Positions 4 to 40,440 of a stretch of 40,440 nucleotides of DNA are shown one piece after another. Numbering within the stretch: the first letter of the stretch is position 1; each line of letters opens with the position of its first letter. Both the position numbers and the translations under genes were made by a program. This DNA comes from an uncultured Bacteroidales bacterium (GTDB lineage: Bacteria; Bacteroidota; Bacteroidia; Bacteroidales; Paludibacteraceae), in the NCBI GenBank assembly GCA_902800215.1, contig CADCDS010000016.1, positions 424-40,863 on the forward strand. The letters are read 5' to 3'. Below the pieces are notes generated by a model. The model searched no databases and had not been told where the DNA came from. It saw only the letters and a program-made list of their open reading frames with translations.

Positions 4-348
4 ATGAAACGACCGAAGAAAGTGAACGGTCACAACCACGGCAACTACATGGTGATGACGCATCGCAGTGCCCCCACCCAGAACCCCAACTGTCAACGCA
101 TCTACACCTTCGATGCAGACCGTTACGACCGTACCACCCCGATCACGGCGGACGAGGCAGCAGCACGTCTGCGTTTCAGCACTGTGGCCGCGATGGTGAA
201 GCAGCGTAAAGGTGACCTCACCAAGATCGCAGCCGACCAGGCAGCCTTCCTGGAGCAAAAGGACACGGCCGGCGGTAAGAAAACCCTCAAGGCCTATTAC
301 TGGAAGATCTGCGGCGACGCGTACGACGAGAGCCTCGCTAACGGCTAA
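4..348 (+). CDS. Small hypothetical protein, possibly cut by left edge
   Basis: This is a 114-residue basic, soluble reading frame with no signal peptide or membrane segment. It opens with an HNHGNYMVMTHR stretch, then RIYTFDADRYDR and an Ala-rich helical part. From memory it resembles short uncharacterised Bacteroidales proteins, but I cannot name a family or function. The ATG is four bases from the edge, so neither a ribosome site nor an upstream extension can be judged. The last codons and the stop lie inside a 7-base tandem array (336-370), which supplies the terminal SLANG residues. The next gene has its own promoter, so this one is probably not co-transcribed with it. Confidence 0.6.
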   Translation: MKRPKKVNGHNHGNYMVMTHRSAPTQNPNCQRIYTFDADRYDRTTPITADEAAARLRFSTVAAMVKQRKGDLTKIAADQAAFLEQKDTAGGKKTLKAYYWKICGDAYDESLANG

Positions 349-370
349 TGGCTAATGGCGAAAGGTCGAA
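336..370. repeat. 7-base tandem array, GGCTAAT/GGCGAAA type
   Basis: Five heptamers run in register: CGCTAAC, GGCTAAT, GGCTAAT, GGCGAAA, GGTCGAA. The array covers the stop codon of the first gene. The 13-mer TAATGGCGAAAGG (353-365) recurs on the opposite strand inside argS (22900-22912). Confidence 0.8.
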
Positions 371-413
371 TGGCCGAAAATGCAGAAAAATCTGCAAAAA
401 ATGGCATACACTC

Positions 414-444
414 TTGTGTATGTCATATTTTTTTTGTACCTTTG
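414..444 (+). promoter_or_regulatory. Bacteroidota-type promoter
   Basis: TTG at 414-416 is followed by a 20-base spacer and TACCTTTG at 437-444. This matches the Bacteroidota housekeeping sigma consensus (TTTG, then TAnnTTTG). It sits 27 bases before the ATG at 472 and so excludes the longer open frame that starts upstream of it. Confidence 0.8.
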
Positions 445-471
445 CAGCCGAAAACACAAAATCTCACTGTT

Positions 472-1839: not shown

Positions 1840-1852
1840 ATTTGCAAAAATA

Positions 1853-1884
1853 TTTGCATATATCAGAATTTTTTTGTAATTTTG
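1853..1884 (+). promoter_or_regulatory. Bacteroidota-type promoter
   Basis: TTTG at 1853-1856, a 20-base spacer, then TAATTTTG at 1877-1884. It lies 60 bases before the HTH-protein start and probably drives the run to apbE. Confidence 0.8.
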
Positions 1885-1944
1885 CAGCCGATTTTGAAAA
1901 AGTGGGATAATTCACATTATAAACTACAAAAAATAACATAGATT

Positions 1945-2184
1945 ATGCGTACAACATTTAATCGCCTTCGTGCAGTAAAAGACAGTCTTCCACATGGTAG
2001 TATGGACGCTATTGCAGCAGAACTTGGAATTTCGGGAGAGGATGTAAGAGCGTACTTCAGAGGAGAAGCAACCGCCGATGTACATATGGAAGCCGGTCCG
2101 GAAGGCGGTATCGTTGATTTCGATAACACCCGCATTCTGGAAGTTGCCCTGCGTCGTGCATGGGAAGCTCAGAATGCCCTTTGA
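1945..2184 (+). CDS. Short helix-turn-helix-like protein
   Basis: This is a 79-residue protein. Residues 1-40 fit a helix-turn-helix: an SMDAIAAELGISGEDVRAYF segment has the spacing and small residues of a recognition helix. The rest is acidic, then a short helix rich in Arg and Ala. Similar short HTH-like proteins are frequent in Bacteroidales, with no established role. It has its own promoter. Its end overlaps the next reading frame if that one starts at the ATG at 2160, so the two may be translationally coupled. DNA binding is inferred only from the helix pattern. Confidence 0.75.
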   Translation: MRTTFNRLRAVKDSLPHGSMDAIAAELGISGEDVRAYFRGEATADVHMEAGPEGGIVDFDNTRILEVALRRAWEAQNAL

Positions 2185-3023
2185 TAACGGTGAAAGGTTA
2201 TCGGTTATCGGTTATCCGTAAAAAGGTGATCGCTCTGGTGCTATGCATCGGAGCGCTACCTTTTGTAATTAACGCGGACGCATACGCGTATGAAGGCGAA
2301 GGGCAAACGGCGAAAGGCGAAAGGAAGTTAATCGACGAACTGACTTACAACGCGCAGGCACGGATCCAGACTTCCTATCTCTGGCGAGGATTATACTGCG
2401 GCGGACCGAACATACAAGCCAGCGCCAACATCGGTTTCTACGGCGTGTATGCCGACATGTGGTGGAACATCGGTGCAACAGACATCCGCTTTAGCGCCTT
2501 TCAACCGGAAGTGGATCTGTCGGTCGGGTTTAACCGCTGGGGACTGGATGTGTATCTGCTCTATATCTACAATTTCAACTGCGGATTCTTTGACGGAGGA
2601 AACTATATCGACAAGGGAAACCGATTGGAACTCAACGTCAAATACACCATTCCCAAGACCCATCTCACGATCGCTTGGGCCAGCCGTGTAGCGGCATCAG
2701 ACTGTTACCAAGTAGAAAGGGTTACGGATGAGGGGTTACGGGTTACGGAACTTGTAAGAGCCTACTCCAGTTACGCCGAGATCAGTTATAACCAACCGCT
2801 TAAAGACGGATGGAGTGTGTTCGGTGCGATAGGTGTCACACCGTGGAAAGGATGTTATAACCCTAACGGAGCGGCACTGCAGAACATCGAGGTGAGGGTG
2901 CGGAAAGACTGGCAAATCGCCCGCCACACCGGCATCATGCTGCAGGGACAGATGGCCGTTAACCCCATGACACCGATCCACGTGATCAATTTGAATGCAA
3001 CGGTCGGAGTGTATCTGAGATGA
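2160..3023 (+). CDS. Outer-membrane beta-barrel protein, TorF/TIGR02001-like (copy A)
   Basis: The 287-residue frame starts at an ATG inside the HTH gene; a GTG at 2190 would give a more normal signal peptide (KKVIALVLCIGALPFVINADAYA). The mature part alternates amphipathic strands and carries a TSYLWRGLYCGG motif, typical of TorF-family putative porins (YxxRG). It ends in a strand, VGVYLR. It is a clear paralogue of the next gene, sharing SYxWRG, WxNIGAxD, PExDxSVGF, GxxPWK and the NP-containing end. Unlike the paralogue it carries three 7-base arrays: at the N-terminus, just after the signal peptide (GEGQTAKGERK) and in a loop (QVERVTDEGLRVTELV). Substrate unknown; the outer-membrane location is inferred. 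Confidence 0.75.
   Translation: MGSSECPLITVKGYRLSVIRKKVIALVLCIGALPFVINADAYAYEGEGQTAKGERKLIDELTYNAQARIQTSYLWRGLYCGGPNIQASANIGFYGVYADMWWNIGATDIRFSAFQPEVDLSVGFNRWGLDVYLLYIYNFNCGFFDGGNYIDKGNRLELNVKYTIPKTHLTIAWASRVAASDCYQVERVTDEGLRVTELVRAYSSYAEISYNQPLKDGWSVFGAIGVTPWKGCYNPNGAALQNIEVRVRKDWQIARHTGIMLQGQMAVNPMTPIHVINLNATVGVYLR
2196..2216. repeat. 7-base tandem array, GGTTATC x3
   Basis: Three perfect GGTTATC copies, preceded by a related GGTGAAA. The array encodes the residues just before the signal-peptide core of barrel protein A, so copy number would change the start context or the frame. Confidence 0.85.
2292..2325. repeat. 7-base tandem array, GAAAGGC type
   Basis: About five degenerate units (GAAGGC, GAAGGGC, AAACGGC, GAAAGGC, GAAAGGA) encode the hydrophilic stretch after the signal peptide of barrel protein A. 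GGCGAAAGGCGAA (2309-2321) recurs, reverse-complemented, in the argS array at 22878-22919. Confidence 0.8.
2719..2746. repeat. 7-base tandem array, GGGTTAC type
   Basis: GGGTTAC, GGATGAG, GGGTTAC, GGGTTAC in register, inside barrel protein A. It encodes a predicted loop that is absent from the paralogue. Confidence 0.8.
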
Positions 3024-3040
3024 TTGAAGATTGAAGATTT
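3022..3040. repeat. 7-base tandem array, GATTGAA type
   Basis: Two and a half GATTGAA units begin in the stop codon of barrel protein A. The 19-mer GATTGAAGATTGAAGATTT is identical at 18425-18443 inside the yggS-HAD gene. Confidence 0.8.
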
Positions 3041-3060
3041 TTAAAATTATAACAAACAAA

Positions 3061-3912
3061 ATGAAAAAGGTATTAGTGATGGCTGCTGCATTGGTAGCAG
3101 CAGTTTGTTCTGCGAAAGCAGAAGTAGAGTTCGCTTACGATGCCGGTGCTGAGCTCGTAAGCAGTTATATCTGGCGTGGCCAGTACAACGGTGGTCTGAG
3201 TCTCCAACCGGACCTCGAGATCGGTTATGACGGTTCCTATTCCTCTCTCCGCATCGGTGCATGGGGAAACATCGGTGCCTCTGACTGGATGTTCAAGAAA
3301 GATCAGGGTGACGGAACGGGTTACACCAAGTTCATGCCGGAGATCGACATCGTAGGTTCGTTTACCGCCTGCGGTCTGAGTGTCGGTTTTAACCATTATT
3401 ACTACTGCGACGGCACCTCGTTCTTCAACTGGAAGAGCGTAGCCGATATCGACGCGGAAGGCGGAACCAGCACCACAGAGGTATGGGCCGGTTATAACTT
3501 CAACCATTTCTTCGGCTCCAAAGCCGGTGCGTATATCAACTGGTACACGACTGTTGCCGGTGGTGACCTCGTTTATGACGAGGCAGGTGATCCGAAACGT
3601 GCTTGGTCCAGTTACCTCGAGATCGGTTATGAATACTGCTTTGAGGATGCCGGTGTGACACTCGGTGCACAAGTAGGTATGTCCCCGTGGAAGAGTGACC
3701 TGTACGGAAACGATAAGTTCGCCGTTACCAACGTCAGCCTCAAGATCAACAAAGACTGGGAGTTCGAGCATATGACCCTCAGCCTCTTCGGTCAAGGCAC
3801 TGTGAACCCCAACGGTATCGACAAGACGAACGTGTTTGTCAACGCTGCCGGTGACGACAAGCTCTATCAGCAGAAACTGAACGGTGTGATCGGTCTCGGA
3901 TTCTGGTTCTAA
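3061..3912 (+). CDS. Outer-membrane beta-barrel protein, TorF/TIGR02001-like (copy B)
   Basis: This is a 283-residue protein. The start chosen is the ATG that opens a clean signal peptide (MKKVLVMAAALVAAVCSAKA); an upstream in-frame ATG at 3031 would bury it. The mature protein has SSYIWRGQYNGG, repeated amphipathic strands, GMSPWKSD and a terminal aromatic strand (GVIGLGFWF), the usual C-terminal signature of outer-membrane barrels. It is paralogous to the preceding gene. Its stop overlaps the ATG of apbE by one base, so the two are translationally linked. A passive channel or structural porin is the likely role; the substrate cannot be told. Confidence 0.8.
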   Translation: MKKVLVMAAALVAAVCSAKAEVEFAYDAGAELVSSYIWRGQYNGGLSLQPDLEIGYDGSYSSLRIGAWGNIGASDWMFKKDQGDGTGYTKFMPEIDIVGSFTACGLSVGFNHYYYCDGTSFFNWKSVADIDAEGGTSTTEVWAGYNFNHFFGSKAGAYINWYTTVAGGDLVYDEAGDPKRAWSSYLEIGYEYCFEDAGVTLGAQVGMSPWKSDLYGNDKFAVTNVSLKINKDWEFEHMTLSLFGQGTVNPNGIDKTNVFVNAAGDDKLYQQKLNGVIGLGFWF

Positions 3913-4934
3913 TGATTCAGGCCAATCCCAAACATACGATCGCTCCGATGATCGGTGTGGCTATCGCCGCATTGCTCTTATGGGTGTGGGACTCCGACGG
4001 AAAACCGGAATACCGCACCCATCAGGGCCCCGTCTTCGGTACCTATTACAACATCCGTTACGAAGCCAAACAGGACCTGGAAACGGAGATACAGGCGGCC
4101 TTGCAGGATTTTGATAATAGTCTCAGTCTGTTTAACCCCCACTCCATCCTCTCGGCCGTCAACGCCAACCGGGACACCGTCACCAATGCGGCTTTTGAGA
4201 CGATGTTCGCCGAAGCAACACGAGTACACGAGCTGTCCCACGGTGCGTTCGACATCACGGTAGCCCCCTTGGTCAACTACTGGGGATTCGGACCTAATGA
4301 GAGAAATCTCCAATCTTCAATCTCCAATCTCCAATCTCCAATCGACTCGCTATGCGAGTTCGTGGGCTTTGAGAAAGTGCAACTCATCAACCATCATATC
4401 GTTAAAGCCGATCCGAGAGTGCAGTTAGACGGCGGAGCCGTTGCCAAAGGACAGGCATGCGATATGATCGCTGCAGTACTCCGTGACCACGGATGCCGGA
4501 ACTACTTGGTAGAGATCGGCGGAGAACTGGTGCTGCACGGTGTGAACGCACAGGGCCAACCCTGGAGTATCGGAATCAGCAAACCTACCCTCTCCAACGA
4601 CGGTGTGGAGACCGACTATCAGGAGATCCTTCATCTGACCGACGCCTGCATCGCTACCAGCGGCAACTACCGCAACTTCAACGAAGCCGGTGGTCACACC
4701 ATCGATCCCCGAAAAGGCTATCCGGTGCAGCAGACCGTCTATAGTGCTACTATCCTCAGTTCCACTTGTATGCGTGCCGACGCCTTGGCCACCGCCTGCA
4801 TGGTGCTCGGAGAAGAAGAGGCACTGGACATGATCGACCGTGCCGGTGACGCTGCTTGTCTGCTGATCGTACGAGAAAATGACAGTTTGAGGGTCGTAAC
4901 ATCCCCAAAATGGGAGGAAATGACGACAAAATAA
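3912..4934 (+). CDS. apbE: FAD:protein FMN transferase (ApbE family)
   Basis: This 340-residue enzyme of the ApbE family moves FMN from FAD to a Thr of target proteins outside the cytoplasm. An N-terminal hydrophobic segment (about 10-26) would anchor or export it; no lipobox is seen, unlike many homologues. Visible family motifs are FGTYYNIRY, FDITVAPLVNYWGFG, a DGGAVAKG block, EIGGELVLHG, ATSGNYRNF, HTIDPRKGYP and the metal-site region MRADALATACMVLG. A 7-base array inside the gene adds NLQSSISNLQSP in a surface loop between the WGFG block and the conserved core. No flavinylation target (Nqr, Rnf or FMN-binding domain) lies nearby, so its partner is unknown. Confidence 0.9.
   Translation: MIQANPKHTIAPMIGVAIAALLLWVWDSDGKPEYRTHQGPVFGTYYNIRYEAKQDLETEIQAALQDFDNSLSLFNPHSILSAVNANRDTVTNAAFETMFAEATRVHELSHGAFDITVAPLVNYWGFGPNERNLQSSISNLQSPIDSLCEFVGFEKVQLINHHIVKADPRVQLDGGAVAKGQACDMIAAVLRDHGCRNYLVEIGGELVLHGVNAQGQPWSIGISKPTLSNDGVETDYQEILHLTDACIATSGNYRNFNEAGGHTIDPRKGYPVQQTVYSATILSSTCMRADALATACMVLGEEEALDMIDRAGDAACLLIVRENDSLRVVTSPKWEEMTTK
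4304..4345. repeat. 7-base tandem array, CAATCTC type, in apbE
   Basis: Six heptamers in register: AAATCTC, CAATCTT, three CAATCTC, CAATCGA. The array translates as a seven-residue repeat (SNLQSSI / SNLQSPI). Its reverse complement belongs to the GATTGAA family found at 3022 and 18411. Confidence 0.9.
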
Positions 4935-4942
4935 AAAAAAAA

Positions 4943-4974
4943 TTTGCATATATGCAATTTTTGTTGTAACTTTG
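4943..4974 (+). promoter_or_regulatory. Bacteroidota-type promoter for bamD-rpoZ-coaBC
   Basis: TTTG at 4943-4946, a 20-base spacer, TAACTTTG at 4967-4974. It overlaps the upstream TTG start of the open frame, which makes the ATG at 4993 the true bamD start. Confidence 0.85.
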
Positions 4975-4992
4975 CAGGCTTTTTTGTTTACA

Positions 4993-5796: not shown

Positions 5797-5800
5797 CCAT

Positions 5801-7692: not shown

Positions 7693-7720
7693 TTTTAATT
7701 AATTTGAGTGAAAAACGCTG

Positions 7721-13422: not shown

Positions 13423-14413
13423 GATTCAAATAGCAATTTTGGGGCTGTGTCTGAGCATGACCGTCAGCCTGCAGGCAGCGGAGGAACTGAGCAATGATAC
13501 CTTTGTATGGCTTGTCACCTGTTCTCCGGGTGATGATCTGTATAACAAATACGGTCACACGGCGATTCGTGTGCGTGACTCTGTCAATGATATCGATGCC
13601 ATCTTCAACTACGGCACGTTTGATTTCAACACGGAGCATTTCTATTGGAAGTTTATGCGCGGTGAGACCTGGTATGAGTTGGGTCTGGAGTATCCGTATT
13701 ACTGGTTCGAACGCGCGTATACCGATCATGGCCGGAAGGTCTATTGGCAGGAACTGAACCTCGATCAAGCAGAGAAACAGGCCTTGTGGGACGCGTTATG
13801 GGAGAATCTCAAACCGCAGAACAAACAATACCTGTATAATTTTGTCTTTGACAACTGTGCAACCCGGCCGTACCATATGATCATGGATGCCTGCTCGTAT
13901 GCCGTCACATCGGAATACAAAGGCTATACCGGCAGTACCTACCGTTCTTTCTTACGCCATTACACAGGCGGCTTGTCCTGGGCCAATGCCGGTATCAACC
14001 TGCTTTTTGGTCCACGAGCGGACCGTAAGATGGATTCGGAACAACGCTTGTTCCTGCCGGAAGAGTTGATGAATTACATGCAACAAGCCTATCGCACCGA
14101 TGACGGTGCACCGTTTGTGCTGCGCAGTAACATCGCTCCTTTTGAACCGCCCTACACTCCCTGGTACGCTTCCTGGCCTGTCGGACTGGTACTCTATTTC
14201 CTCTTTGTTTTAGGAATGAGCTGGTACGACCGCAGACGGAAGAAATGGTCCTGGTGGGTAGAAGCCGTAACGGGATTCGTTTACCTGTTCCTGTTACTGC
14301 TGGTAGGTTTTCTCACTTTCTTCAGCTGTCATCCGTTGGTAGGATTCGGCTGGCGTTTACTTATTATCCCTGTAACCCATTTATGCGCAAGATTACTCTA
14401 TATCATTCGCTGA
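13412..14413 (+). CDS. DUF4105 exported membrane protein
   Basis: This 333-residue protein has an N-terminal signal or anchor (about 1-22, ending in QA-A). Its periplasmic domain (25-190) has the DUF4105/Lnb-like signatures YGHTAIRV, FNYGTFDF and FDNCATRP; the His and Cys look like a thiol-type hydrolase pair. Two or more hydrophobic helices follow at about 250-330. Related NlpC/P60-like or Lnb-type proteins act on lipoproteins or acyl chains, but the activity of this family is not established. The gene overlaps its upstream neighbour by 11 bases and its downstream neighbour by 31, in the middle of a lipid and envelope run. Confidence 0.8.
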   Translation: MWYKIQIAILGLCLSMTVSLQAAEELSNDTFVWLVTCSPGDDLYNKYGHTAIRVRDSVNDIDAIFNYGTFDFNTEHFYWKFMRGETWYELGLEYPYYWFERAYTDHGRKVYWQELNLDQAEKQALWDALWENLKPQNKQYLYNFVFDNCATRPYHMIMDACSYAVTSEYKGYTGSTYRSFLRHYTGGLSWANAGINLLFGPRADRKMDSEQRLFLPEELMNYMQQAYRTDDGAPFVLRSNIAPFEPPYTPWYASWPVGLVLYFLFVLGMSWYDRRRKKWSWWVEAVTGFVYLFLLLLVGFLTFFSCHPLVGFGWRLLIIPVTHLCARLLYIIR

Positions 14414-15852
14414 TTATCAGTATGTTATTAATCAGCAGCACCCTCACTGCCGCTCCTCGGCTGACCATTGTAGCCGTGGTGGACGGTTTGTCATCTGAGA
14501 GTCTGAACACCCTTCGGCCCTACTGGCAGAAAGGCGGCCTTCGTACCTTAAGTGAAGAAGCGTACCAGACGACCGTCACCTTTCCCCATCTGGTGTACGG
14601 CGGTAACGAGACGACTGCAACCCTGATGACGGGTGCCACACCGGATCGGCACGGATATACGATGGATAACTATTTCGTGCGGAAGAGCCGTTCCGTGCGT
14701 GCGATGCTGAACGATGAGTCGGTACGCGGCATCGGTTCATCCATCCACTTGTCTGCCAAGGAACTACTGATGCCCACGATCGCCGATCGGATGCGTATGC
14801 TCTATCCGGAAGGCAAGATCTATGCGGTCGGTTTGCAACCGCAGACGACGGTACTCTTAGCCGGTCACGCGGCTAACGCCTGTTGCTGGATAGATGCAGA
14901 CACCCGGGAATGGGCGGCAACGACGGCGTATAACGAAGGACTACCTTCGGCGGCCTATGAGCAGAACAAAAAAGGGAGAATAGCAGACTTGGCTACGCAC
15001 TTATGGACACCGCGCATGGCGGTGAACACCTACACTGCACCTACCGCTCAAGAGAAGAAAAAGAAGGGATTCAGTTACGATGTAAGCAAGAACCTGCTTC
15101 GTTGTCCGGAAGCCAACACCCTGGTTATAGAACTGGCCTTGGCACTGCAACAAACGGAGCAATTAGGTACCGATGCCACACCGGATATGATCTTGTTACA
15201 CTTGAATACCCTCAGTCCGGCAGCCAACTCTGACCGCATCGCATCAGCGGAACAGGAAGATATGTACCTGTGGTTAAATCAGGACTTAGGTTACCTCATG
15301 GAGCAATTGGATAAACGCATCGGACATACGAACTATCGCATCTTAGTGGTGGGTCGTCCCGTCTTAGGAACCGACGCACAGACGATGGAGACCATTCATA
15401 TGCCGGTAAGGCAGTTCAATATCGACCGTGCCGCGGCATTAACCGGCACCTATCTGATGGCCCTTTACGGACATGAACGGTGGGTGGACGGAGCCTACGG
15501 ACAGAGTATCTACTTGAACCGTTCCCTCATCGAGCAGAAACGAATGAACCTGGAGAGCATCCAACGGCAGGTAGCGAATTTCCTGATGGATTTTGAAGGT
15601 GTACAAGTGGCCTTTCCTCATTACGAAGCGTTCCATTATCCGCTGATCGGAAACTCCCTTTGTAAGAAACACACCGGTGACGTGGTCTTTATGCTCCAAC
15701 CCGGCTGGCAGTTGATGCAGAATGACCTACAACCTATCGACCGTGTCATCGATGAACAACCGGCTGTTCCGGTGTTGTTATGGTCAGGAGAGATCCTACC
15801 GATGCCGCAAGGAACTATTGATGCGACAGGAGTTGCAGATTTGTTATTTTAG
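14383..15852 (+). CDS. Alkaline-phosphatase-superfamily exported protein, metal ligands apparently missing
   Basis: This 489-residue exported protein starts at the ATG opening the signal peptide (MRKITLYHSLIISMLLISSTLTAA). The alkaline-phosphatase/nucleotide-pyrophosphatase fold is indicated by VVDGL with its metal-type Asp (about 34) and by NETTATLMTGATPDRHG (nucleophile and TG...P..HG region). However, the later metal-ligand motifs of active relatives (a TDxxGH-like block and a DHG block) are not seen: the corresponding stretches read LLHLNTLSPAANSD and LVVGRPVLG. The C-terminal half (340-489) keeps the ExxLxxxG and VPVLL segments of the fold. It may be a catalytically altered or pseudo-enzyme member. 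It overlaps DUF4105 by 31 bases. Confidence 0.75.
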   Translation: MRKITLYHSLIISMLLISSTLTAAPRLTIVAVVDGLSSESLNTLRPYWQKGGLRTLSEEAYQTTVTFPHLVYGGNETTATLMTGATPDRHGYTMDNYFVRKSRSVRAMLNDESVRGIGSSIHLSAKELLMPTIADRMRMLYPEGKIYAVGLQPQTTVLLAGHAANACCWIDADTREWAATTAYNEGLPSAAYEQNKKGRIADLATHLWTPRMAVNTYTAPTAQEKKKKGFSYDVSKNLLRCPEANTLVIELALALQQTEQLGTDATPDMILLHLNTLSPAANSDRIASAEQEDMYLWLNQDLGYLMEQLDKRIGHTNYRILVVGRPVLGTDAQTMETIHMPVRQFNIDRAAALTGTYLMALYGHERWVDGAYGQSIYLNRSLIEQKRMNLESIQRQVANFLMDFEGVQVAFPHYEAFHYPLIGNSLCKKHTGDVVFMLQPGWQLMQNDLQPIDRVIDEQPAVPVLLWSGEILPMPQGTIDATGVADLLF

Positions 15853-15874
15853 ATTTGAGATTTAAAATTTGAAT
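15847..15874. repeat. 7-base tandem array, TTTGAGA type
   Basis: TTTTAGA, TTTGAGA, TTTAAAA, TTTGAAT in register. It spans the stop of the phosphatase-like gene and the space before the DUF4494 ATG, where a ribosome site would be expected. Confidence 0.7.
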
Positions 15875-16294: not shown

Positions 16295-17142
16295 TGCCGC
16301 TGCAGTTTGATATACGTGCGGTGCTGAAGAGTAAAGCGCCGAATGCGCATGTGCCGGGTTTTCTGATCCGGTATCTGGAACGCATCACGCATATCAAGCA
16401 GATGAATGCTTTCCTGGCTAAGTATCCGGATAAGAAAGATTTTGAGTTTATCCGACTGGTCGTGGACGAGTTGTTAGGTTGCAGCGCGTCGATCGACGGA
16501 ATAGAAAACATACCAACCGACAACAAACCCGTTATCTTTGTTTCTAATCACCCCCTCGGAGGACTCGACGGAATGATTATCGCTGAGATGATTCATGAAA
16601 GTCGAAAGTCGAAAGTCGAAAGTCGAAAGCTTAAGGTGATCGTCAATGAACTGCTGATGTATATGGAGCCGATCAACGGACTCTGGGCGCCGGTGAACAA
16701 AGTAGGCAGACTGAGCCGGGAACAAGTGGAAGCACAGCAACGTATGTGGGAGTCGGAAACCGATGTGCTCACCTTCCCTGCCGGAGCATGCAGTAGACTG
16801 CAACGCATTGACGGTCACTGGAAGATACAAGACCTGGAATGGCAGAAGAACTTTGTGCAACGCGCACGCGAATACCAACGCGACATTGTGCCGATCTATT
16901 TTGAAGGACGAAACAGAAAACGTTTCTATGCCTTGGCATTCCTGCGTAAGTTGCTGCATATCAAATTGAATATCGAGATGTTATACCTTGTCGATGAGAT
17001 GTTCGGGGCACACGGTAAGCACTTCAAAGTGCATGTATTACCGCCTATCCCGTACACCACTTTCGACAACACCCATACGCCCAAAGAATGGGCACAACAC
17101 GTAAAAAACATTGTTTATGGAGCCGATAATAGAACCTGTTGA
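16294..17142 (+). CDS. glsA: Lysophospholipid-type acyltransferase, GlsA-like (glycine lipid synthesis)
   Basis: This 282-residue protein of the PlsC-like acyltransferase superfamily has FVSNHPLGGLDG (H..D catalytic motif), NELLMYMEPINGLWAPVNKVG, a TFPAGACSR block and VPIYFEGRNRKRFYAL. In Bacteroides thetaiotaomicron GlsA adds the O-acyl chain to make glycine lipids, with GlsB adding the N-acyl chain. The gene next door here is the GlsB-like partner, which supports this assignment. A 7-base array encodes ESRKSKVESRKLK between the catalytic motif and the NELL block, a basic seven-residue repeat in a predicted loop. It shares one base with DUF4494 and 26 with glsB. Confidence 0.82.
   Translation: MPLQFDIRAVLKSKAPNAHVPGFLIRYLERITHIKQMNAFLAKYPDKKDFEFIRLVVDELLGCSASIDGIENIPTDNKPVIFVSNHPLGGLDGMIIAEMIHESRKSKVESRKLKVIVNELLMYMEPINGLWAPVNKVGRLSREQVEAQQRMWESETDVLTFPAGACSRLQRIDGHWKIQDLEWQKNFVQRAREYQRDIVPIYFEGRNRKRFYALAFLRKLLHIKLNIEMLYLVDEMFGAHGKHFKVHVLPPIPYTTFDNTHTPKEWAQHVKNIVYGADNRTC
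16597..16631. repeat. 7-base tandem array, GAAAGTC x4-5, in glsA
   Basis: Four perfect GAAAGTC units and a fifth GAAAGCT. Three units make 21 bases, so the protein reads a seven-residue repeat (ESRKSKV / ESRKLKV). Confidence 0.92.
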
Positions 17143-18043
17143 AACAAGTTTGTTAGAACAAGAACTGGAGGGTCATCTGCTGCGTCCTACCAACAAAGCA
17201 GGAAACCTCATCTATGATATCACCGCACACGAATGTCCGAACGTGATGCGGGAGATCGGTCGTCTGCGGGAAATCAGTTACCGAGACGGAGGTGGTGCTA
17301 CCGGTAAATCCATGGACATCGATGAGATGGATACCATGGAGAAACCGTACCACCAACTCATCGTCTGGGATCCGGATAACAGACGGATCATCGGCGGATA
17401 CCGTTACCTGTTAGGGAAAGAAGCACAGATCATTGACGGACAGCCGTACATCACCTCGGCACACCTCTATCATTATTCCGAACGTTTCATCCGGGATTAC
17501 CTACCCTACACCATTGAGTTCGGCAGAGCCTTCGTGCAACCCCTTTATCAGACAAGGGAAGCAGGTGTCAAAGCACTCTTTGCTCTCGATAACATCTGGG
17601 ACGGAATCGGTGCATTGGTGCATAACAATCCGGATTTGAAGTATATGTTCGGAAAAGTGACGATCTACCCCGATTATAACATCGAGGCACGAAACCTCAT
17701 CTACACCTATCTCCATCAGTACCATTTGGGAGATCAGGAACTGATGCATCCTTATCACCCGCTGCCGATAGAACCCATCACGGATTCGCCTTTTACCGGA
17801 GAAGACGCACAAGAGAACTACCATATTCTGCAACACGCTGTACGGGAGAAAGGAACGGTGATCCCTCCGATGTTCTCGGCCTATCTGAACCTCACCAATG
17901 ACCTGCTTTTCTTTGGTAATGCCATTAATGACGAGTTAGCTAACGTCTATGAAACCGGCATCATGGTAGAGATCCAGAAGATCTACGCGGAAAAGCAAGA
18001 ACGCTATATCAATCCGTATATCCAATGGTTACAGAATCAATAA
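17117..18043 (+). CDS. glsB: GNAT-fold N-acyltransferase, GlsB-like (glycine lipid synthesis)
   Basis: This 308-residue protein resembles the OlsB/GlsB-type acyl-ACP-dependent N-acyltransferases that put a 3-hydroxy-acyl chain on an amino acid, here probably glycine as in Bacteroides. Visible are REIGRLREISYRDGGGATG, HQLIVWDPDNRRIIGGYRYL (the GNAT beta-strand core) and PYTIEFGRAFVQPLYQ. The long C-terminal part (190-308) is typical of the Bacteroidota form. The ATG at 17117 is chosen over a TTG two codons upstream. It overlaps glsA by 26 bases and the next gene by 19. Ornithine lipid synthesis is the alternative. Confidence 0.82.
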   Translation: MEPIIEPVETSLLEQELEGHLLRPTNKAGNLIYDITAHECPNVMREIGRLREISYRDGGGATGKSMDIDEMDTMEKPYHQLIVWDPDNRRIIGGYRYLLGKEAQIIDGQPYITSAHLYHYSERFIRDYLPYTIEFGRAFVQPLYQTREAGVKALFALDNIWDGIGALVHNNPDLKYMFGKVTIYPDYNIEARNLIYTYLHQYHLGDQELMHPYHPLPIEPITDSPFTGEDAQENYHILQHAVREKGTVIPPMFSAYLNLTNDLLFFGNAINDELANVYETGIMVEIQKIYAEKQERYINPYIQWLQNQ

Positions 18044-23235: not shown

Positions 23236-23966
23236 AACTTGGGATATTTTCTAAACCAACTATTCATCTTCAATTTAATCACACCAAAGAGTGCCTCGGA
23301 GAAGATACCTCCGCTCATCTTACTGGTACCCAGCACACGGTTCACGAACACGATCGGCACCTCAATAATCTTCGCACCGCATTTATGCGCCGTGTATTTC
23401 ATCTCGATCTGGAACGCATAACCTTTGAAACGGATCTTATCCAGTTCCATGGTCTCTAACAGATGACGTTTGTAGCAAACGAAGCCGGCTGTCGTGTCTT
23501 TGATCTTCACGCCTAACACCGTACGGACATATTTGGACGCGAAATAACTCATCAGCACCCGACCCATCGGCCAATTGACCACGTTCACACCCGTGATATA
23601 CCGGCTACCGATCGCCAGGTCTGCCCCCTCATTCGCACAAGCGTCATATAACTTCAACAGATCCTTCGGATTGTGACTGAAATCGGCATCCATCTCAAAG
23701 ATATAATTGGCCTTATGCTCGATCGCCCAGGCAAAACCGCAGAGGTACGCCGTGCCGAGACCGAGTTTACCGGAACGCTCTACCAGGAACAGACGGTCCT
23801 TGAACGCACCGTTCATCAACTTCTTCACGATCGCTGCCGTGCCGTCCGGCGAACCGTCATCGATGATGAGGACGTTGAAATCCAACGGTAACTCCATCAC
23901 GGCCGTAATGATTGCTTCGATATTCTCCTTCTCGTTGTAGGTAGGAATGATAACAAGTCTTTCCAT
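23232..23966 (-). CDS. Polyprenol-phosphate mannosyltransferase-like GT2 glycosyltransferase
   Basis: This 244-residue GT2 enzyme resembles dolichol/polyprenol-phosphate mannose synthase (Dpm1/Ppm1), which transfers a hexose from a nucleotide sugar to a lipid phosphate carrier at the cytoplasmic face. Seen: IIPTYNEKENIEAII, the nucleotide-binding LIIDDGSPDGT, MDADFSHNP (metal-binding Asp), IGSRYITG and KDTTAGFVCYKR, all hallmark. There is no C-terminal membrane domain, so it is the short soluble form. It lies upstream of argS with an ATGA overlap and downstream of the metallo-hydrolase gene. The donor sugar cannot be told from sequence. Confidence 0.88.
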   Translation of the reverse strand: MERLVIIPTYNEKENIEAIITAVMELPLDFNVLIIDDGSPDGTAAIVKKLMNGAFKDRLFLVERSGKLGLGTAYLCGFAWAIEHKANYIFEMDADFSHNPKDLLKLYDACANEGADLAIGSRYITGVNVVNWPMGRVLMSYFASKYVRTVLGVKIKDTTAGFVCYKRHLLETMELDKIRFKGYAFQIEMKYTAHKCGAKIIEVPIVFVNRVLGTSKMSGGIFSEALFGVIKLKMNSWFRKYPKL

Positions 23967-23972
23967 ATTAAC

Positions 23973-24004
23973 GATTTAACAGTTTAACGTTTTAACGATC
24001 TAAC
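23973..24004. repeat. 8-base tandem array, nnTTTAAC type
   Basis: GATTTAAC, AGTTTAAC, GTTTTAAC, GATCTAAC, spanning the gap between the glycosyltransferase start and the stop of the upstream gene. The 14-mer TTTAACGTTTTAAC (23983-23996) recurs in the same orientation at 36694-36707. Confidence 0.85.
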
Positions 24005-24834
24005 GTCTCTACGATCATCTTGTCGTTGAGACTATAAACGGGACTCGGCGTCGTACGTTCCAGCGCCTTCAAGAAGATATCCTGTCCCGGGATGATCTCT
24101 ATCTCTTCCAGATAGGATGCCACCGTGTGGTAAGCCACCTCCGGATCGTTGTTCTCCAACGACAGGTGACAAAGCCATACGTTACGCAGATCCGGATGCC
24201 AGTTACGCTCCAACAGCTCACCGCACACATCATTACTCTGATGGCCCCGTGGACTCAAGATTCGCTCCTTCAGATACGTCGGATACGGACCGTTGAGCAA
24301 CATATGCTCATCGTGGTTCGCTTCGATCACCAGATGGTTCGCCGTGCGGATATACGCCTCCATCTCTTCATTCACCGAACCGCAGTCCGTCATCAGCACA
24401 AAACGCTGATTCAGAAAATCGATGCAGTAACCTAAGCAGTCCGTCGAGTCGTGTTCGATGTGGAAAGTATTGATCCGCATACCGAAGAGTTCCCACTCTA
24501 CACCGCGCTCGAAATAACGGCGACTCGTACGTAACTTCTCACGAACACCGTAGTTCCGGTCAATACCTTCATGAATCTCCGCTGTCGTGTATATCGGCAG
24601 ATGAACACGCTCTCCTAATGTACCCACCGCACGGATATGATCCGCGTGATCGTGCGTCACCAGCACACCCATGATATTTTGGAAATCCAGCCCCATCTCA
24701 CGCAGACATTTCTGTATCTGGCGCGCAGAGATACCCGCATCAATCAGGATACCCCGATGACGCGTACCGAGATAGTAGCAGTTTCCGCTACTTCCACTCG
24801 CAAAGCATCTAAATATGAGTCCGTTTTCCTCCAT
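23992..24834 (-). CDS. Metallo-beta-lactamase-fold hydrolase, WalJ/YycJ-like
   Basis: This 280-residue metallo-hydrolase has FASGSSGNCYYLG, ILIDAGISARQI, the metal motif THDHADH, a second His region (TFHIEHDSTDCLGY), MTDCGSV and LCHLS near the end, as in YycJ/WalJ-type enzymes thought to act on DNA or RNA ends. The start is the ATG at 24834; the open frame extends 19 codons further but runs through the promoter. The stop lies inside an 8-base tandem array shared with the next gene. It has its own promoter, divergent from aminopeptidase P. A nuclease role is inferred from the family. Confidence 0.88.
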   Translation of the reverse strand: MEENGLIFRCFASGSSGNCYYLGTRHRGILIDAGISARQIQKCLREMGLDFQNIMGVLVTHDHADHIRAVGTLGERVHLPIYTTAEIHEGIDRNYGVREKLRTSRRYFERGVEWELFGMRINTFHIEHDSTDCLGYCIDFLNQRFVLMTDCGSVNEEMEAYIRTANHLVIEANHDEHMLLNGPYPTYLKERILSPRGHQSNDVCGELLERNWHPDLRNVWLCHLSLENNDPEVAYHTVASYLEEIEIIPGQDIFLKALERTTPSPVYSLNDKMIVETLDR

Positions 24835-24851
24835 ACTATCAAAAAATCGTG

Positions 24852-24883
24852 CAAAATTACAAAAAAATTTTGATATATGCAAA
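24852..24883 (-). promoter_or_regulatory. Bacteroidota-type promoter for the metallo-hydrolase gene
   Basis: Minus-strand TTTG (24883-24880), a 20-base spacer, TAATTTTG (24859-24852), ending 18 bases before the ATG at 24834. It overlaps the divergent promoter. Confidence 0.85.
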
Positions 24884-24899
24884 TTTTTCACTACCTTTG
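24869..24899 (+). promoter_or_regulatory. Bacteroidota-type promoter for aminopeptidase P
   Basis: TTTG at 24869-24872, a 19-base spacer, TACCTTTG at 24892-24899, 21 bases before the ATG at 24920. Confidence 0.85.
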
Positions 24900-24919: not shown

Positions 24920-26713
24920 ATGAAAGTAGTAGAGCGTTTAGCCGCGTTGCGGCAAGAGATGCGTGAAGCGGGTTTGGCTGCGTACGTAGTACCGGGGAAT
25001 GACCCTCACGCAAGTGAATATATGGCTTCTCACTGGTTTGAGATGCAGTGGATCTCCGGCTTTAACGGCGAATCCGGTACCATGGTCATCACCTTGGACC
25101 ATGCCCTACTGTGGACCGACAGCCGATATTACCTGCAGGCTGGTTTGGAACTCAAAGACTCCACCATCGAACTGATGCGTGAATCCGATGTGGACTGCCC
25201 TAAGATCGTTGACTGGCTTGCTGACAACGTGCAAGGTCTCGTGGGCGTGAATCCCGAGATGTTCTCGGTCAATGATTTTGCCGAATGGAAAGAGAAAATC
25301 GAACTCAAATCCATCGATCTCATCAAGCCGATCTGGACCGAAGGTCGCCCTGCAATCCCTCAAGACAAACTCTATCCATACTCCGCCGATTTTGCAGGAG
25401 AGACCGTAGAAAGCAAGCTGGCAAGAATGCGGGAAATCGTAAATCGAAAATCATCCAATCGCAAATGGGCAATGATCATCAGTGCCCTCGACGAGATTGC
25501 TTGGTTGCTCAACATCCGCGGCAAAGATGTGGAATATAACCCCGTTGTCATCTCTTACGTCGTGCTCGAAGACGATAAATGCACCCTCTTCGTAGATGCG
25601 AATAAAGTGGATTCGCCTGCGCAGAACTACCTCGACTTCAATAACATCGATGTCAAGCCCTACGAAGCGGTATTTGACTATATCCGCAGTCTTAGCGGTG
25701 CCATCCTATACGACGGTGCACGTGTCAACGAGGCGCTGTACGAAGCCATTCCGGAAGGATGCAAGAAGATCGATGCCAAGTCCCCCATCCTCATTGACAA
25801 AGCCAAGAAAAATGCCGTCGAACTGGAAGGAGAACGCATCGCGATGCGCCAAGATGCTGTCGCCCTCACCCGTTTCTTCAAATGGCTCGAAGAAGAAGCC
25901 TTTGCAGACGGTAAGACCCAGACTGAGTGCTCGCTTGCAGACAAACTGCACGAGTTCCGCTCCATGGGAGAGAACTTCACGGATGAGTCCTTCGGCACGA
26001 TCGCAGGCTACCAAGGAAACGGTGCGATCGTCCATTATGCGGCGACACCCGAAAACTGTGCCGTAGTCAAACCCGAAGGAATGTTACTTCTCGACTCCGG
26101 CGGTCAGTACCTCGACGGAACGACGGATATCACCCGCACCGTCTGGCTCGGTGGACGTATCCCGCAGCAAGCGAAACTCGACTATACCTACGTCCTCAAA
26201 GGTCACATCGCGTTAGCCACCGCTCGTTTCCCACGTGGTACACGCGGTAACCAACTCGATGCCTTAGCCAAGCAATACATGTGGGCGGCAGGTATCACCT
26301 ATGGTCACGGAACGGGTCACGGCGTCGGCCATTTCTTAGGCTGCCACGAAGGACCGCAAAACGTACGCACGGATAACAACCCCACCGCACTCGAGATCGG
26401 TCACATTATCTCCGATGAACCGGGTATCTACCGCACCGACAAATGGGGTATCCGCACGGAGAACCTCATTACCGTCATTCCGGCAAAACAGACCAAGGCA
26501 ACCACCACCGAAGATGAGTGGCTCGCCTTCGAAACCCTCACCCTCTGTTTCTACGACACCTCTCTCATCGAACTGTCGCTCATGACGGAAGACGAGATCG
26601 ACTGGCTCAACGCCTACCACGTACGTGTCTATAAAGAAATCTCTCCGCTGCTCAACAACGAAGAGAAATCTTATCTGGCCTACAAATGTGCCGCGATTGA
26701 AGTAGAAAATTAA
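24920..26713 (+). CDS. pepP: Xaa-Pro aminopeptidase P (M24 family)
   Basis: This 597-residue cytosolic metallopeptidase removes an N-terminal residue ahead of proline. It has two creatinase-like N-domains (about 1-300), then the pita-bread catalytic domain with all five metal ligands in view: LLLDSGGQYLDGTTDITRT (two Asp), GHGTGHGVGHFLGCHEGPQ (His), ISDEPGIYR and GIRTENLI (two Glu). The three-domain length fits eukaryote-like APP1 rather than short E. coli PepP. The start is the ATG after the promoter, 35 codons inside the open frame. A degenerate 7-base array lies in the second N-domain (REIVNRKSSNRKW). It ends at a bidirectional terminator. Confidence 0.93.
   Translation: MKVVERLAALRQEMREAGLAAYVVPGNDPHASEYMASHWFEMQWISGFNGESGTMVITLDHALLWTDSRYYLQAGLELKDSTIELMRESDVDCPKIVDWLADNVQGLVGVNPEMFSVNDFAEWKEKIELKSIDLIKPIWTEGRPAIPQDKLYPYSADFAGETVESKLARMREIVNRKSSNRKWAMIISALDEIAWLLNIRGKDVEYNPVVISYVVLEDDKCTLFVDANKVDSPAQNYLDFNNIDVKPYEAVFDYIRSLSGAILYDGARVNEALYEAIPEGCKKIDAKSPILIDKAKKNAVELEGERIAMRQDAVALTRFFKWLEEEAFADGKTQTECSLADKLHEFRSMGENFTDESFGTIAGYQGNGAIVHYAATPENCAVVKPEGMLLLDSGGQYLDGTTDITRTVWLGGRIPQQAKLDYTYVLKGHIALATARFPRGTRGNQLDALAKQYMWAAGITYGHGTGHGVGHFLGCHEGPQNVRTDNNPTALEIGHIISDEPGIYRTDKWGIRTENLITVIPAKQTKATTTEDEWLAFETLTLCFYDTSLIELSLMTEDEIDWLNAYHVRVYKEISPLLNNEEKSYLAYKCAAIEVEN
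25433..25460. repeat. 7-base tandem array, degenerate GAAATCG type, in pepP
   Basis: GAAATCG, TAAATCG, AAAATCA, TCCAATC in register, followed by GCAAATG. It encodes EIVNRKSSNRK in the linker region of the N-domains. Confidence 0.6.
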
Positions 26714-30872: not shown

Positions 30873-30884
30873 TGTTGTAATAAT

Positions 30885-33695: not shown

Positions 33696-33699
33696 ATAC

Positions 33700-36477: not shown

Positions 36478-36509
36478 TATGATTTGTACCTTATTTTCAA
36501 AATCGGGTG

Positions 36510-36540
36510 CAAAATTACTACTTTATTCCAACATACACAA
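36510..36540 (-). promoter_or_regulatory. Bacteroidota-type promoter for the TonB operon
   Basis: Minus-strand TTG (36540-36538), a 20-base spacer, TAATTTTG (36517-36510), 32 bases upstream of the receptor ATG at 36477. The flanking 36541-36645 is AT-rich with no further signal seen. Confidence 0.75.
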
Positions 36541-36645
36541 CACCTAAAATTAATAGAAAGTGCTCTTTCTTTAATATTTTATGCTAAATCTTAAAAATAG
36601 TATATTATTTTTAGCCGAAAATTCATTTTATGTACATGTTATATT

Positions 36646-36678
36646 AAAAAAAATGAGCCCAATCTTGAGGGCTCATTT
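36646..36678 (-). terminator. Intrinsic terminator after htpG
   Basis: Perfect 10-base stem AAATGAGCCC (36651-36660), loop of eight, GGGCTCATTT (36669-36678). On the minus strand it is followed by a run of T (36650-36646). It lies about 25 bases past the htpG stop. Confidence 0.9.
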
Positions 36679-36682
36679 CTCA

Positions 36683-36714
36683 CAATTCAACAATTTAACG
36701 TTTTAACCGTTTAG
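36683..36714. repeat. 8-base tandem array at the htpG 3' end
   Basis: CAATTCAA, CAATTTAA, CGTTTTAA, CCGTTTAG in register, covering the htpG stop. It shares TTTAACGTTTTAAC with the array at 23973. Confidence 0.8.
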
Positions 36715-38643: not shown

Positions 38644-38659
38644 AGTATTTGTGTTTTAA

Positions 38660-38694
38660 AAATTTTCAAATCCAATTTCTAATTTACAAATCCT
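38660..38694. repeat. Degenerate 7-base tandem array upstream of htpG
   Basis: AAATTTT, CAAATCC, AATTTCT, AATTTAC, AAATCCT in register. AT-rich and degenerate, so it may be chance; it lies in the htpG leader. Confidence 0.4.
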
Positions 38695-38706
38695 ATGCCA
38701 AGAGGC

Positions 38707-38726
38707 AAAAACTGCCAAAATGGCAG
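38707..38726 (-). terminator. Intrinsic terminator after the SecD-domain lipoprotein gene
   Basis: On the minus strand CTGCCA, loop TTT, TGGCAG (38726-38712), then a five-T run (38711-38707). It follows the stop codon at 38728 directly and separates this gene from htpG. Confidence 0.8.
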
Positions 38727-38727
38727 A

Positions 38728-39882
38728 TTATTTAGCCGGTTCGATCACTTCGATTTGGAGGATGCGAACGGGTGCCGGCATCTTACCGGACTTGAGGACA
38801 TTGGCCAGATCTTTGGCTTCTTCTTCGGTGAAGTTTCCGGCGATAGAACTACGTCCGCATGTGATTTCGGATTGTACGGTCGGGTAAGTATAGACGAGGC
38901 CGTCTAAAACGATCGCGATGGGTCTGCCGATGTTCATTTGCGTGAAACGAGCCCATTCACGAGCGCCAGCTGCGTTCATACTCATCATTATTTCCGCATA
39001 GTTTGCGTTCATCTCGGCACGTGCGTCGGTGATTACATCGCCGTTCAAGGCGGGACAACCTCGTCTACTTGCCTTCAGCGCAATGAGTCGGAAATATTGT
39101 CCCGTTTCATCTACCGGTTTTACTTCCCATGCGAAGCGCACATCACGAGGAAGGATTTTGAGCGCAGCCGAGGAACGCAAGATCTCGTTAATCTTCGCCG
39201 TGTCGGAAACATTTGCCGTACCGATCACCGGGGAGTAAGAATAATTTTCGGTATCAGCAAAGAAAGAGAAGAACGACTGTTGAGCATGCAGTTCTTGTAG
39301 TGCTGAAAGCAGTTCTTGCAAAGAATACGTTTCCCAGAATTCCAGATTTGCACTACTTCCAATTAATTTACTAATACGTTGTTCATCTTTTATGCCAGGG
39401 ATCTCGATTAGAATACGTCCGTTGGACAATTTCTGCATAGTCGGGTTAGAGATACCAAAACGGTCAAGCCGAGTACGGAGTACGTTGAAGGAGTTGTCAA
39501 TGGCTGCCTCTACTTCACCGCGGACAACGTATCTTACATCGCTATTGTTCATGTCGGGATCTATTCTGTCACGCATAGTCGCGCAGAACAAAGGAGCTAA
39601 ACGATGATCGAGTTGCTCATACATGTCAAAGAAGGTTTCCAAAAAGTCATTCGACTCGTCTTCTTGCATTTGCCGACAAGCGAAATCAAAAACATTTTTA
39701 TAGTCAGGTGTCAAATTATGACCGGTCAAAGCGTCCAAGATGTCCGGGACAGATACTTCGGCCGTTAAAACGATACCTCCGTCTTTTTCAATAGACGCGG
39801 GTTGTTTGCTACAGGACGTGCCAAAGAGGCATACGAAAGCGAAGCATGCAACTCCGCAAAGGATGAGATTAGAGTGTTTCAT
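38728..39882 (-). CDS. Lipoprotein consisting of a SecD-type periplasmic domain
   Basis: This 384-residue protein starts at the ATG that opens a lipoprotein signal (lipobox near FGTSC, Cys 24); the frame extends nine codons upstream. The rest matches the first periplasmic domain of SecD/SecDF: VRGEVEAAIDNSFNVLRTRLDRFGISNPTMQKL, NGRILIEIPGIKDEQRISKLIGSSANLEFWETY, an insert of about 140 residues, then MNAAGAREWARFT, RPIAIVLDGLVYTYPTVQSEI and NFTEEEAKDLANVLKSGKMPAPV. Ordinary SecD continues from there into five membrane helices; here the protein stops within a dozen residues. It is therefore a membrane-tethered but helix-free SecD domain, not a working SecD. Role unknown. It is preceded by a 71-base gap and ends at a terminator. 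Confidence 0.88.
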   Translation of the reverse strand: MKHSNLILCGVACFAFVCLFGTSCSKQPASIEKDGGIVLTAEVSVPDILDALTGHNLTPDYKNVFDFACRQMQEDESNDFLETFFDMYEQLDHRLAPLFCATMRDRIDPDMNNSDVRYVVRGEVEAAIDNSFNVLRTRLDRFGISNPTMQKLSNGRILIEIPGIKDEQRISKLIGSSANLEFWETYSLQELLSALQELHAQQSFFSFFADTENYSYSPVIGTANVSDTAKINEILRSSAALKILPRDVRFAWEVKPVDETGQYFRLIALKASRRGCPALNGDVITDARAEMNANYAEIMMSMNAAGAREWARFTQMNIGRPIAIVLDGLVYTYPTVQSEITCGRSSIAGNFTEEEAKDLANVLKSGKMPAPVRILQIEVIEPAK

Positions 39883-39953
39883 ATTCGTTTGTATTTTGGG
39901 TTTGTGCAATAAAGAGCAAAAATTATGCCATAAGGGGCCATAACGGCGTATTT

Positions 39954-40440
39954 TTATTCGAGGATGGGTGTCATGGCACCGAGGAAGACGCGGCTGAAGG
40001 CCTGGCGACGACGGGCAAAGGTGTGGAGACGACGGAGAGGGATGGGTTCGAAGGTAACGTCATCCGATGTCGTTTGATATTGTTTGATATCGTTTGAAAT
40101 AGTTTGAGATTCTTGGGATTTAGCGGCATCACGGGCGGATTGAAGGGCACGATAGATGGAGACGTAGGTATATTGATAGAAACGGGCGTAGGGTTTGAGG
40201 CCGGGTTCGGGTTGTTTATGGGCTTTGAAGACGTTGAAGTAATGGTTCAGGAAACGGATACGCCATTCGAGGGCTTCCATGGAATGGTCTCGTTCGAGGG
40301 CATGTGCCCGGCGTTGGGCTTCTTTGATGAGTTCACGATTCGCTACACAGGCAGCGGACCAGTGTTTGGGAAAATGGTAAGTATAGAGTTCGAAGAGGCC
40401 AGGACGGTGACGGGAAGGGCGGACGACGATGTGTTTGCGG
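39954..40440 (-). CDS. Hypothetical protein, 5' end outside the window
   Basis: The frame is open from the right edge to the stop at 39954, about 161 residues seen. An internal Met at 40280 is unlikely to be the start, since the upstream stretch (PGLFELYTYHFPKHWSAA, ELIKEAQRRAHALERDHS) reads as folded protein and stays open. The visible part is basic and helical with no signal or membrane segment. From memory it resembles uncharacterised Bacteroidales proteins. A 10-base tandem array (40071-40110) encodes SQTISNDIKQYQTTSDD, an inserted polar stretch. The C-terminus is Arg-rich (RRLHTFARRRQAFSRVF). Function unknown. Confidence 0.7.
   Translation of the reverse strand, partial: RKHIVVRPSRHRPGLFELYTYHFPKHWSAACVANRELIKEAQRRAHALERDHSMEALEWRIRFLNHYFNVFKAHKQPEPGLKPYARFYQYTYVSIYRALQSARDAAKSQESQTISNDIKQYQTTSDDVTFEPIPLRRLHTFARRRQAFSRVFLGAMTPILE
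40071..40110. repeat. 10-base tandem array, nnTTTGAnAT type
   Basis: CGTTTGATAT, TGTTTGATAT, CGTTTGAAAT, AGTTTGAGAT in register, then TCTTGGGATT. It is inside the partial hypothetical gene and is the only array with a period of 10. Confidence 0.88.

Follow-up and report, generated by a model that had tools for sequence, protein, structure and literature searches.

How do tandem repeats with a seven-base unit come to be dispersed through a bacterial genome, many of them inside genes, the essential argS among them? The question is raised by a 40,440-nt stretch of DNA (the window) from an uncultured Bacteroidales bacterium of the family Paludibacteraceae. The window is part of a 1.96-Mb draft genome (G000) that is 85% complete, and the closest named relatives come from drafts of rumen and hindgut origin that carry the name Bacteroidales or Paludibacteraceae; all genomes compared here are metagenome drafts. 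We found that heptamer arrays differ between sister species by replacement of whole blocks and that unlinked arrays share irregular tracts. We give roughly an even chance to the proposal that the arrays are a genome-wide set of heptamer tracts moved by block copying between loci and retained where proteins tolerate them.

Counting an array of period 7 where there are at least 12 of 14 matches at lag 7 (the strict test), we found 11 in the window, plus one of period 8 and one of period 10. In 100 codon-shuffled windows, the mean number of period-7 arrays was 0.06 and the maximum was 1. Exact lag-7 runs of at least 10 matches numbered 7, against 0.03 in 60 dinucleotide shuffles, and the remaining lags between 3 and 13 had none; over lags 3 to 30, lag 7 and its multiples stand out. 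Nine of the 11 period-7 arrays lie entirely in reading frames (argS alone has three), and two cross stop codons (336-365 and 3018-3040). A sequence-only reading of this DNA had claimed tandem micro-arrays scattered through it, many inside genes including argS (with three), and had held that equal density in codon-shuffled sequence would refute the idea; the excess and the placement bear these claims out. Its count of at least 15 arrays stands only in part: 13 of the 16 positions it listed pass (11 of period 7, 23975-24005 of period 8, and 40066-40107 of period 10), and those at 2719, 15837-15872, and 36694-36712 are weak.

A 440-kb sample (the window plus twenty 20-kb stretches from other contigs; 440,440 bases, 22% of the genome) holds 102 period-7 arrays, or 232/Mb. 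This is 3.4 times the density at lag 8 (68/Mb), the next highest once multiples of 7 are set aside; a Markov control gave 2.3/Mb at lag 7. Period-7 density is 211/Mb in a sample from the sister species, 187/Mb in 30 loci from other members of the genus, and 62/Mb in 69 other Bacteroidales loci, with wide variation from locus to locus. With open reading frames (ORFs) called by a simple longest-ORF rule, here and in the patch counts below, 61 of the 102 arrays lie within ORFs, 17 across an ORF edge, and 24 outside, so that density is about sevenfold higher outside ORFs (1.04/kb versus 0.15/kb). The 52 exact arrays comprise 27 distinct units, led by AATCTCC (10 arrays), AAAGGCG (4), and AACCCGT (4). 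Thus, the earlier statement that unit sequences differ between arrays applies to most arrays in the window but fails genome-wide, where units recur in families. Favoured units look different from species to species, like local dialects: AGCCATC and ACGGCTG units together account for 1 of 52 exact arrays here versus 9 of 40 in the sister (p = 0.002, for families picked after the lists were viewed), and three tandem copies of GATTGGA give 15 overlapping hits in this genome, whereas the sister has 4 and none of 120 other genus members exceeds 4.

The sister species (genome G307) provides the most direct view of how arrays change. Its counterpart of the window, L077, aligns to 17.4 kb at 94.6% identity; with 20 further G307 stretches, the alignment totals 61.7 kb at 88 to 95% identity. 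Low-identity patches were listed blind to repeats, yielding 48 block-divergence patches. About half of them (23 of 48) have a lag-7 array in at least one of the two species, versus 2.3 expected from random segments matched in length only; lag-8 arrays occur in 5 patches versus 0.5 expected, and the five other lags tested occur in 0 or 1. In the window, patches at 22876 and 25424 carry lag-7 arrays and one at 23971 carries a lag-8 array; in each, the sister sequence is unrelated and shorter, by a net 15, 9, and 36 bases, respectively. The first (22876-22918, minus strand) lies in argS and contains YGNGERRMANGERP, the part at 22885-22908 passing the strict test; here the sister, like many relatives, has YG(Q/R)QPDRNQ or something close to it. 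The second (25424-25471, plus strand; unit AAATCGT) lies in an Xaa-Pro aminopeptidase-like gene, where the sister has MREQLAKKKADA. The third contains the period-8 array TTAACGAT (23975-24005, minus strand), which spans the 3' end of ORF 23992-24891 and the leader of ORF 23232-23966 and is missing from the sister (net +36 nt). Two more window patches, at 24860 and 26653, lack an array. Arrays present in both species within the shared stretch are those at 15837, 16595, 18410, 21749, and 23020.

In 4 of the 23 array patches (L021:8567 and L022:9395, 9552, and 10013), both species pass the strict test with different units, as in the swaps of ATTGGAT for GGCGAAT at L021:8571 and of GGTTACG for GGCGAAA at L022:9395. 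Conversely, where both sisters have an array with the same unit (tallied by eye), none of eight differs by a whole unit, and four further arrays called in only one sister also align without gaps. Length changes are multiples of three in all 18 array patches inside ORFs, in 17 of 19 non-array coding patches, and in 2 of 5 array patches at ORF edges. A closer pair of genomes, L080 and L081 (96.8% identity over 15 kb), has only two patches, both heptamer arrays, in one of which ACGATGT units are exchanged for AAAGTCG units. A pair with fewer arrays (G017/G051) shows no lag-7 array in 6 patches over 13 kb at 93.3% identity, nor in 28 patches over a further 3.3 kb at 69%; 23 of 48 versus 0 of 6 gives a Fisher p of 0.03.

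Unlinked arrays also resemble one another in their irregularities. In the 440-kb sample, 83 of the 102 arrays have an exact 14-mer in common with another place (23 in a reversed-sequence control). Because perfectly periodic sharing can arise within a unit family without tract copying, we counted only shared stretches whose period is interrupted. Such a stretch of at least 16 nt was found in 57 unlinked array pairs, against 5 to 10 in eight null sets built with scattered substitutions. One pair, short flanks included, has 28 nt in common with five period breaks. The apbE array of the window (4305-4346, plus strand; AATCTCC, 5 to 6 units) shares irregular unit patterns of 24 to 25 nt with L007:13100 and L017:1249, and L011:323 has a 20-nt irregular pattern in common with the swapped array at L021:8571. 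Among 12 chosen pairs (10 within this genome and 2 between other genus members), 11 have no similarity in their flanks and one has a weak 33-bp match.

Some loops carry different arrays in different species. The argS segment around the 22876 loop, ending in MMVEYSSPN, ranges from 138 to 180 nt among 31 sequences, in support of the earlier suggestion that protein loop lengths vary. A search of solved structures for ArgS yielded homologues. Fifteen sequences, the sister's included, have a short 138-nt form, many of them YG-(Q/R)QPDRNQ-like; six, from six species that include this one and exclude the sister, are 153 nt long (a loop of +15 nt); and the ten others measure 147 to 180 nt. Five of the six 153-nt loops contain clear heptamer units, each different: GGCGAAW in the window, a variant in L024, CAACGAC in L025, GGTTAGC in L026, and CAACAGC in L028; the sixth (L036) is irregular. 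The alternative that all relatives carry the same loops without tandem structure, raised by the sequence-only reading as a refutation, therefore fails, since 15 of 31 have the short loop and others have arrays of other units. In the aminopeptidase-like gene, the sister and several relatives have MREQLAKKKADA or a near form, the window and the non-sister species L059 and L060 have EIVNRKSSNRKWA, and another species has an array of AAAGTCG-like units. The argS loops of L031, L038, and L040, three of the ten that measure 147 to 180 nt, hold in-frame inserts that appear palindromic by eye, of the type CTTCCCTT...AGGGGAGG in two of them, and an insert in the apbE loop of L083 looks similar.

We propose the following scheme. 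Each genome would hold a population of heptamer tracts of about 20 to 45 bases, each array built mainly of a single unit. Several adjoining units would be copied together from one array to an unlinked site, overwriting a few tens of bases that might be an older array of another unit or ordinary sequence; the route is probably ectopic conversion or template switching during replication or repair. In genes, only changes that keep the frame, lack stops, and fall in tolerant loops would survive, so the same loops would be struck repeatedly in different species, and each genome would end up with its own set of favoured units. On this scheme, the shared irregular tracts would reflect direct copying, and the 7-base register may come from the copying machinery or from priming on existing arrays; for most patches, which of two alleles is the newer is likewise inferred. 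A stronger version, which we consider unlikely, is that in this genus an active process driven by an enzyme copies short tracts from locus to locus in a 7-base register, so that each species acquires its own repeat dialect and tolerant loops in essential proteins are remodelled again and again at a pace that outstrips point mutation. If true, such copying would differ from both transposition and slippage as a way for genomes to change, and might underlie the unexplained heptamer excess in many bacteria.

Several results weigh against block copying. We found no copying event for which a single donor could be named; with 22% of the genome sampled, most donors would be unseen. Recurrent mutation, which lies outside the model of our null sets, could produce part of the irregular sharing. 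More than half of the patches (25 of 48) lack a lag-7 array, and the divergence of their nearby flanks is much the same as that of array patches. The control pair contributes only 6 patches at comparable identity, and its member L069 still has 2 arrays in 20 kb. The second L080/L081 change is a local rearrangement of related GGTTACG units. Flanks within 80 bp diverge by 10 to 15% in 6 of the 23 array patches, and the aminopeptidase patch is 90 to 92% identical among the window, L059, and L060, with flanks within 300 bp at 71 to 87%. Finally, searches for Ku and RVT_1 identified no enzyme for the copying.

The main rival is replication slippage on chance seeds, in which a polymerase footprint of about 7 bases duplicates units while homogenization and mutation shift the unit over time. 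This mechanism predicts the strong 7-base preference, accounts for the internal uniformity of each array, and fits the local rearrangement between L080 and L081. It does not lead us to expect that array patches replace sequence rather than merely lengthen it, that the unit at one site differs between sisters in 4 patches, or that irregular patterns recur in unlinked arrays. The lack of whole-unit differences (0 of 8) also speaks against slippage; within genes this is weak evidence, because selection would purge whole-unit changes as frameshifts, and for that reason slippage keeps its place as main rival. We nevertheless judge it improbable, and slippage, which the sequence-only reading had named as a possible source of change in frames or loop lengths, is unsupported as the driver of these arrays: the changes seen are block replacements, with another unit installed in 4 of the 23 array patches.

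Orthologous loops that already differ could instead be imported from elsewhere in the genus by short-tract homologous recombination, arrays being simply the most divergent alleles. The aminopeptidase insert, which L059 and L060 carry as well, is consistent with a small patch having passed from one species to another, and because this patch is so much more alike than its flanks, some patches may have moved in this way; the +15-nt argS loop found in six species but not in the sister, and the 6 array patches with divergent flanks, agree with it. Import from relatives such as those seen, whose argS sequences (the other 29) differ by 20 to 32%, should leave diverged flanks as well. Mean divergence within 40 bp of array patches is only 7 to 9% against a background of 4.2%, and in 5 of the 23 the flanks fall below background. 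Judging from these alignments, import may account for some patches, not most; moreover, it leaves the 7-base period and the unit families of a single genome unexplained. As a general account we rate it a rather poor prospect.

Heptamer tracts might also be made at breaks or in loops by a dedicated writer, whether a reverse transcriptase, an end-joining system, or some other unrecognized polymerase; this would suit blocks of fixed period where the sister has ordinary sequence. We think this quite unlikely. Ku was found in none of 41 genomes searched, and RVT_1 had no match in this genome (85% complete) and matched 8 of 26 genomes searched, 4 of 16 within the genus, so that end joining and RVT_1 reverse transcriptase are unsupported as writers; other polymerase families were not searched. 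That 11 of the 12 compared site pairs are alike only within the arrays also argues against it. Least probable is that the arrays are regulatory or phase-variation elements under selection, for although they are about seven times denser outside ORFs and one (L005:5988) directly precedes a start codon, weaker constraint also predicts such a density, the unit at a site can change between sister species, arrays lie in housekeeping genes such as argS, and no change in unit number was seen.

As for the units themselves, a motif fit free of rotation and strand placed the genome's own units, genus-wide units, and other units 5 to 8 standard deviations above random 7-mers; they are not random words, yet no sharp consensus emerged, and we rejected a fixed unit grammar. 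In-gene arrays showed no significant strand bias (37 purine-rich versus 24; p = 0.12). Nor did GAAAGTC or GATTGGA behave as a unit-specific element spread across phyla, reversed controls being about equally common. Three copies of GAAAGTC were present in 7 of 296 Bacteroidota genomes, belonging to 2 genera, versus 3 genomes for the reversed control, and in 27 versus 29 viral stretches; three copies of GATTGGA occurred in 19 of 121 genus genomes versus 16 and, in a sample of the order, in 1 of 247 genomes (this one) versus 3. A plasmid search with one query containing a heptamer array gave no match. Small samples from other genomes show further variety. L070, L054, L079, L091, and L058 have period-11 tandem repeats, in several cases with ATTAGTAGGT-like units, either together with period 7 or in its place; L080 and L081 have a period-5 cluster, and L081 has a period-10 array. 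L120 (Prevotellaceae, RUG354) and L104 (Bacteroidaceae, RUI029) have 9 and 8 arrays, respectively, in about 22 kb each, as high as in the window's genus, with units that differ from those of the window (for example, ACTCTCC and AACTGTC). At L021:9405-9495, AAGGAAT-like and complementary ATTCTTT-like arrays stand in inverted order about 20 to 50 bases apart, and the sister lacks about 50 bases there.

The remaining arrays of the window are on the plus strand except where noted. A GGCTAAT-like array (336-365) spans the stop of ORF 4-348 and the start of ORF 355-1839. ORF 2160-3023 contains GGTTATC in three copies (2193-2221) near its start, the start codon being unproven; GGCGAAA (2302-2324), which passes the strict test; and GGGTTAC (2719-2748), which fails it and is weak (tandem-repeat finder [TRF] score of 39, 73% matches). 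A GATTGAA array (3018-3040) spans the stop of that ORF and the start region of ORF 3031-3912. At the stop of ORF 14245-15852 is a weak period-7/14 array (15837-15872; TRF matches of 68 to 81%) that the sister also has. In glsA, GAAAGTC is repeated 4.7 times (16595-16631); the array of the sister (L077) at the same place is less uniform, and L078 has none. The AGATTGA array (18410-18444), identical in the sister, lies in the YggS half of a gene (18025-19329) that encodes a YggS-type pyridoxal phosphate protein in frame with a HAD phosphatase of the inorganic diphosphatase type. The two other argS arrays, on the minus strand, lie in the C-terminal loop (SDQQSAISHQL; 21749-21780; also in the sister) and at LMANGE (23020-23041), where the sister version differs by two bases and the protein stretch is alike in many genus members. 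A weak period-8 repeat of 2.2 copies (36694-36712; TRF score of 31) crosses the 3' end of htpG, and the period-10 array GTTTGATATT, in four copies (40066-40107), lies in ORF 39954-40280. Nearby, 38728-39909 encodes a 393-residue SecD-like protein that matches SecD/SecDF models only partly and apparently lacks the membrane-spanning part.

How do these arrays compare with known repeats? Phase-variable contingency repeats are a poor match: the window arrays lie in argS, apbE, and glsA, and none of the same-unit sister arrays differs by a whole unit. Rickettsia palindromic elements are repeated DNA that is found in frame in protein genes at tolerated places and has a conserved folded consensus. 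The arrays described here are likewise in frame at tolerated sites in genes; unlike those elements, they are direct tandem heptamers without a conserved inverted-repeat consensus, and palindromic-looking inserts were seen only in other species, in the same argS loop. The short tandemly repeated repetitive (STRR) sequences of cyanobacteria are closer, being short tandem heptamers with several unit types dispersed in one genome, albeit in a different phylum. STRR units include CCCCAGT/CCCCAAT, TTGGTCA, and CAACAGT, none of which is among the 27 distinct exact units in the 440-kb sample. One genus member (L053) has an AATGACC array, which we take to be the same unit as the STRR unit TTGGTCA. Paludibacter, from which a heptamer repeat has been described, belongs to the same family as the window.

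That repeat is TAACTGA, found as patchy arrays of 2 to 6 copies, mostly before start codons, in Paludibacter propionicigenes, other Bacteroidetes, Beggiatoaceae, and Cyanobacteria (PMC4679880). Thus, the earlier assertion that Bacteroidales have no described equivalent does not hold. The arrays here are similarly patchy and low in copy number; TAACTGA, as so described, is one fixed unit mostly before start codons, whereas here the units are many, vary by species, and often occupy coding sites. TAACTGA is absent from the exact-array list of the 440-kb sample, in which 61 of 102 arrays lie in ORFs. The GGGNATC heptamers of Xanthomonas and Nostoc, which form quadruplexes, are genome-wide and over-represented outside genes according to the part available of another paper, which also mentions the STRR heptanucleotides of Calothrix PCC 7601 (PMC4692102). 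The arrays here likewise occur genome-wide and in excess outside genes; a run of at least three Gs per unit, as a G-quadruplex needs, occurs in only 2 of 27 exact units (the AACCCGT and AACCCAT families). Literature searches, with most subscription papers outside reach, found no account of block replacement between sister species or of irregular tracts shared among loci; they found nothing on tandem repeats in Paludibacteraceae, and only PMC4679880 on heptanucleotide tandem repeats in Bacteroidetes.

The nearest known counterpart is the heptameric class of long simple sequence repeats. According to both papers, most genomes with many long-unit repeats have heptamers as the commonest kind (PMC4679880 and PMC4692102), and the slippage proposal, based on a polymerase footprint of about 7 bases, is credited to Mrazek et al. 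2007 (PMC4679880). The arrays here agree with that class, as far as it is described there, in that seven is the commonest long unit, well above chance and above other unit lengths, and in being scattered through the genome; they differ in being short (about 3 to 6 units), in lying often within genes, some of them essential, and in that block differences between sisters and irregular tracts common to loci, rather than unit-by-unit change, were seen here. Published work already covers the excess of heptamers, their dispersal, and their occurrence in Bacteroidetes such as Paludibacter; what looks new is the behaviour of the arrays, that is, block replacement between sister species together with irregular tracts common to loci. 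The 7-base bias has long been noted, with polymerase slippage as the sole mechanism cited in the portion of PMC4679880 available, and the sister comparison points to block copying instead. If block copying holds, it would offer a testable mechanism for the old heptamer puzzle and a route by which essential enzymes evolve new loops quickly; it would also warn that a loop insertion in a genome of this kind can be repeat-derived rather than adaptive.

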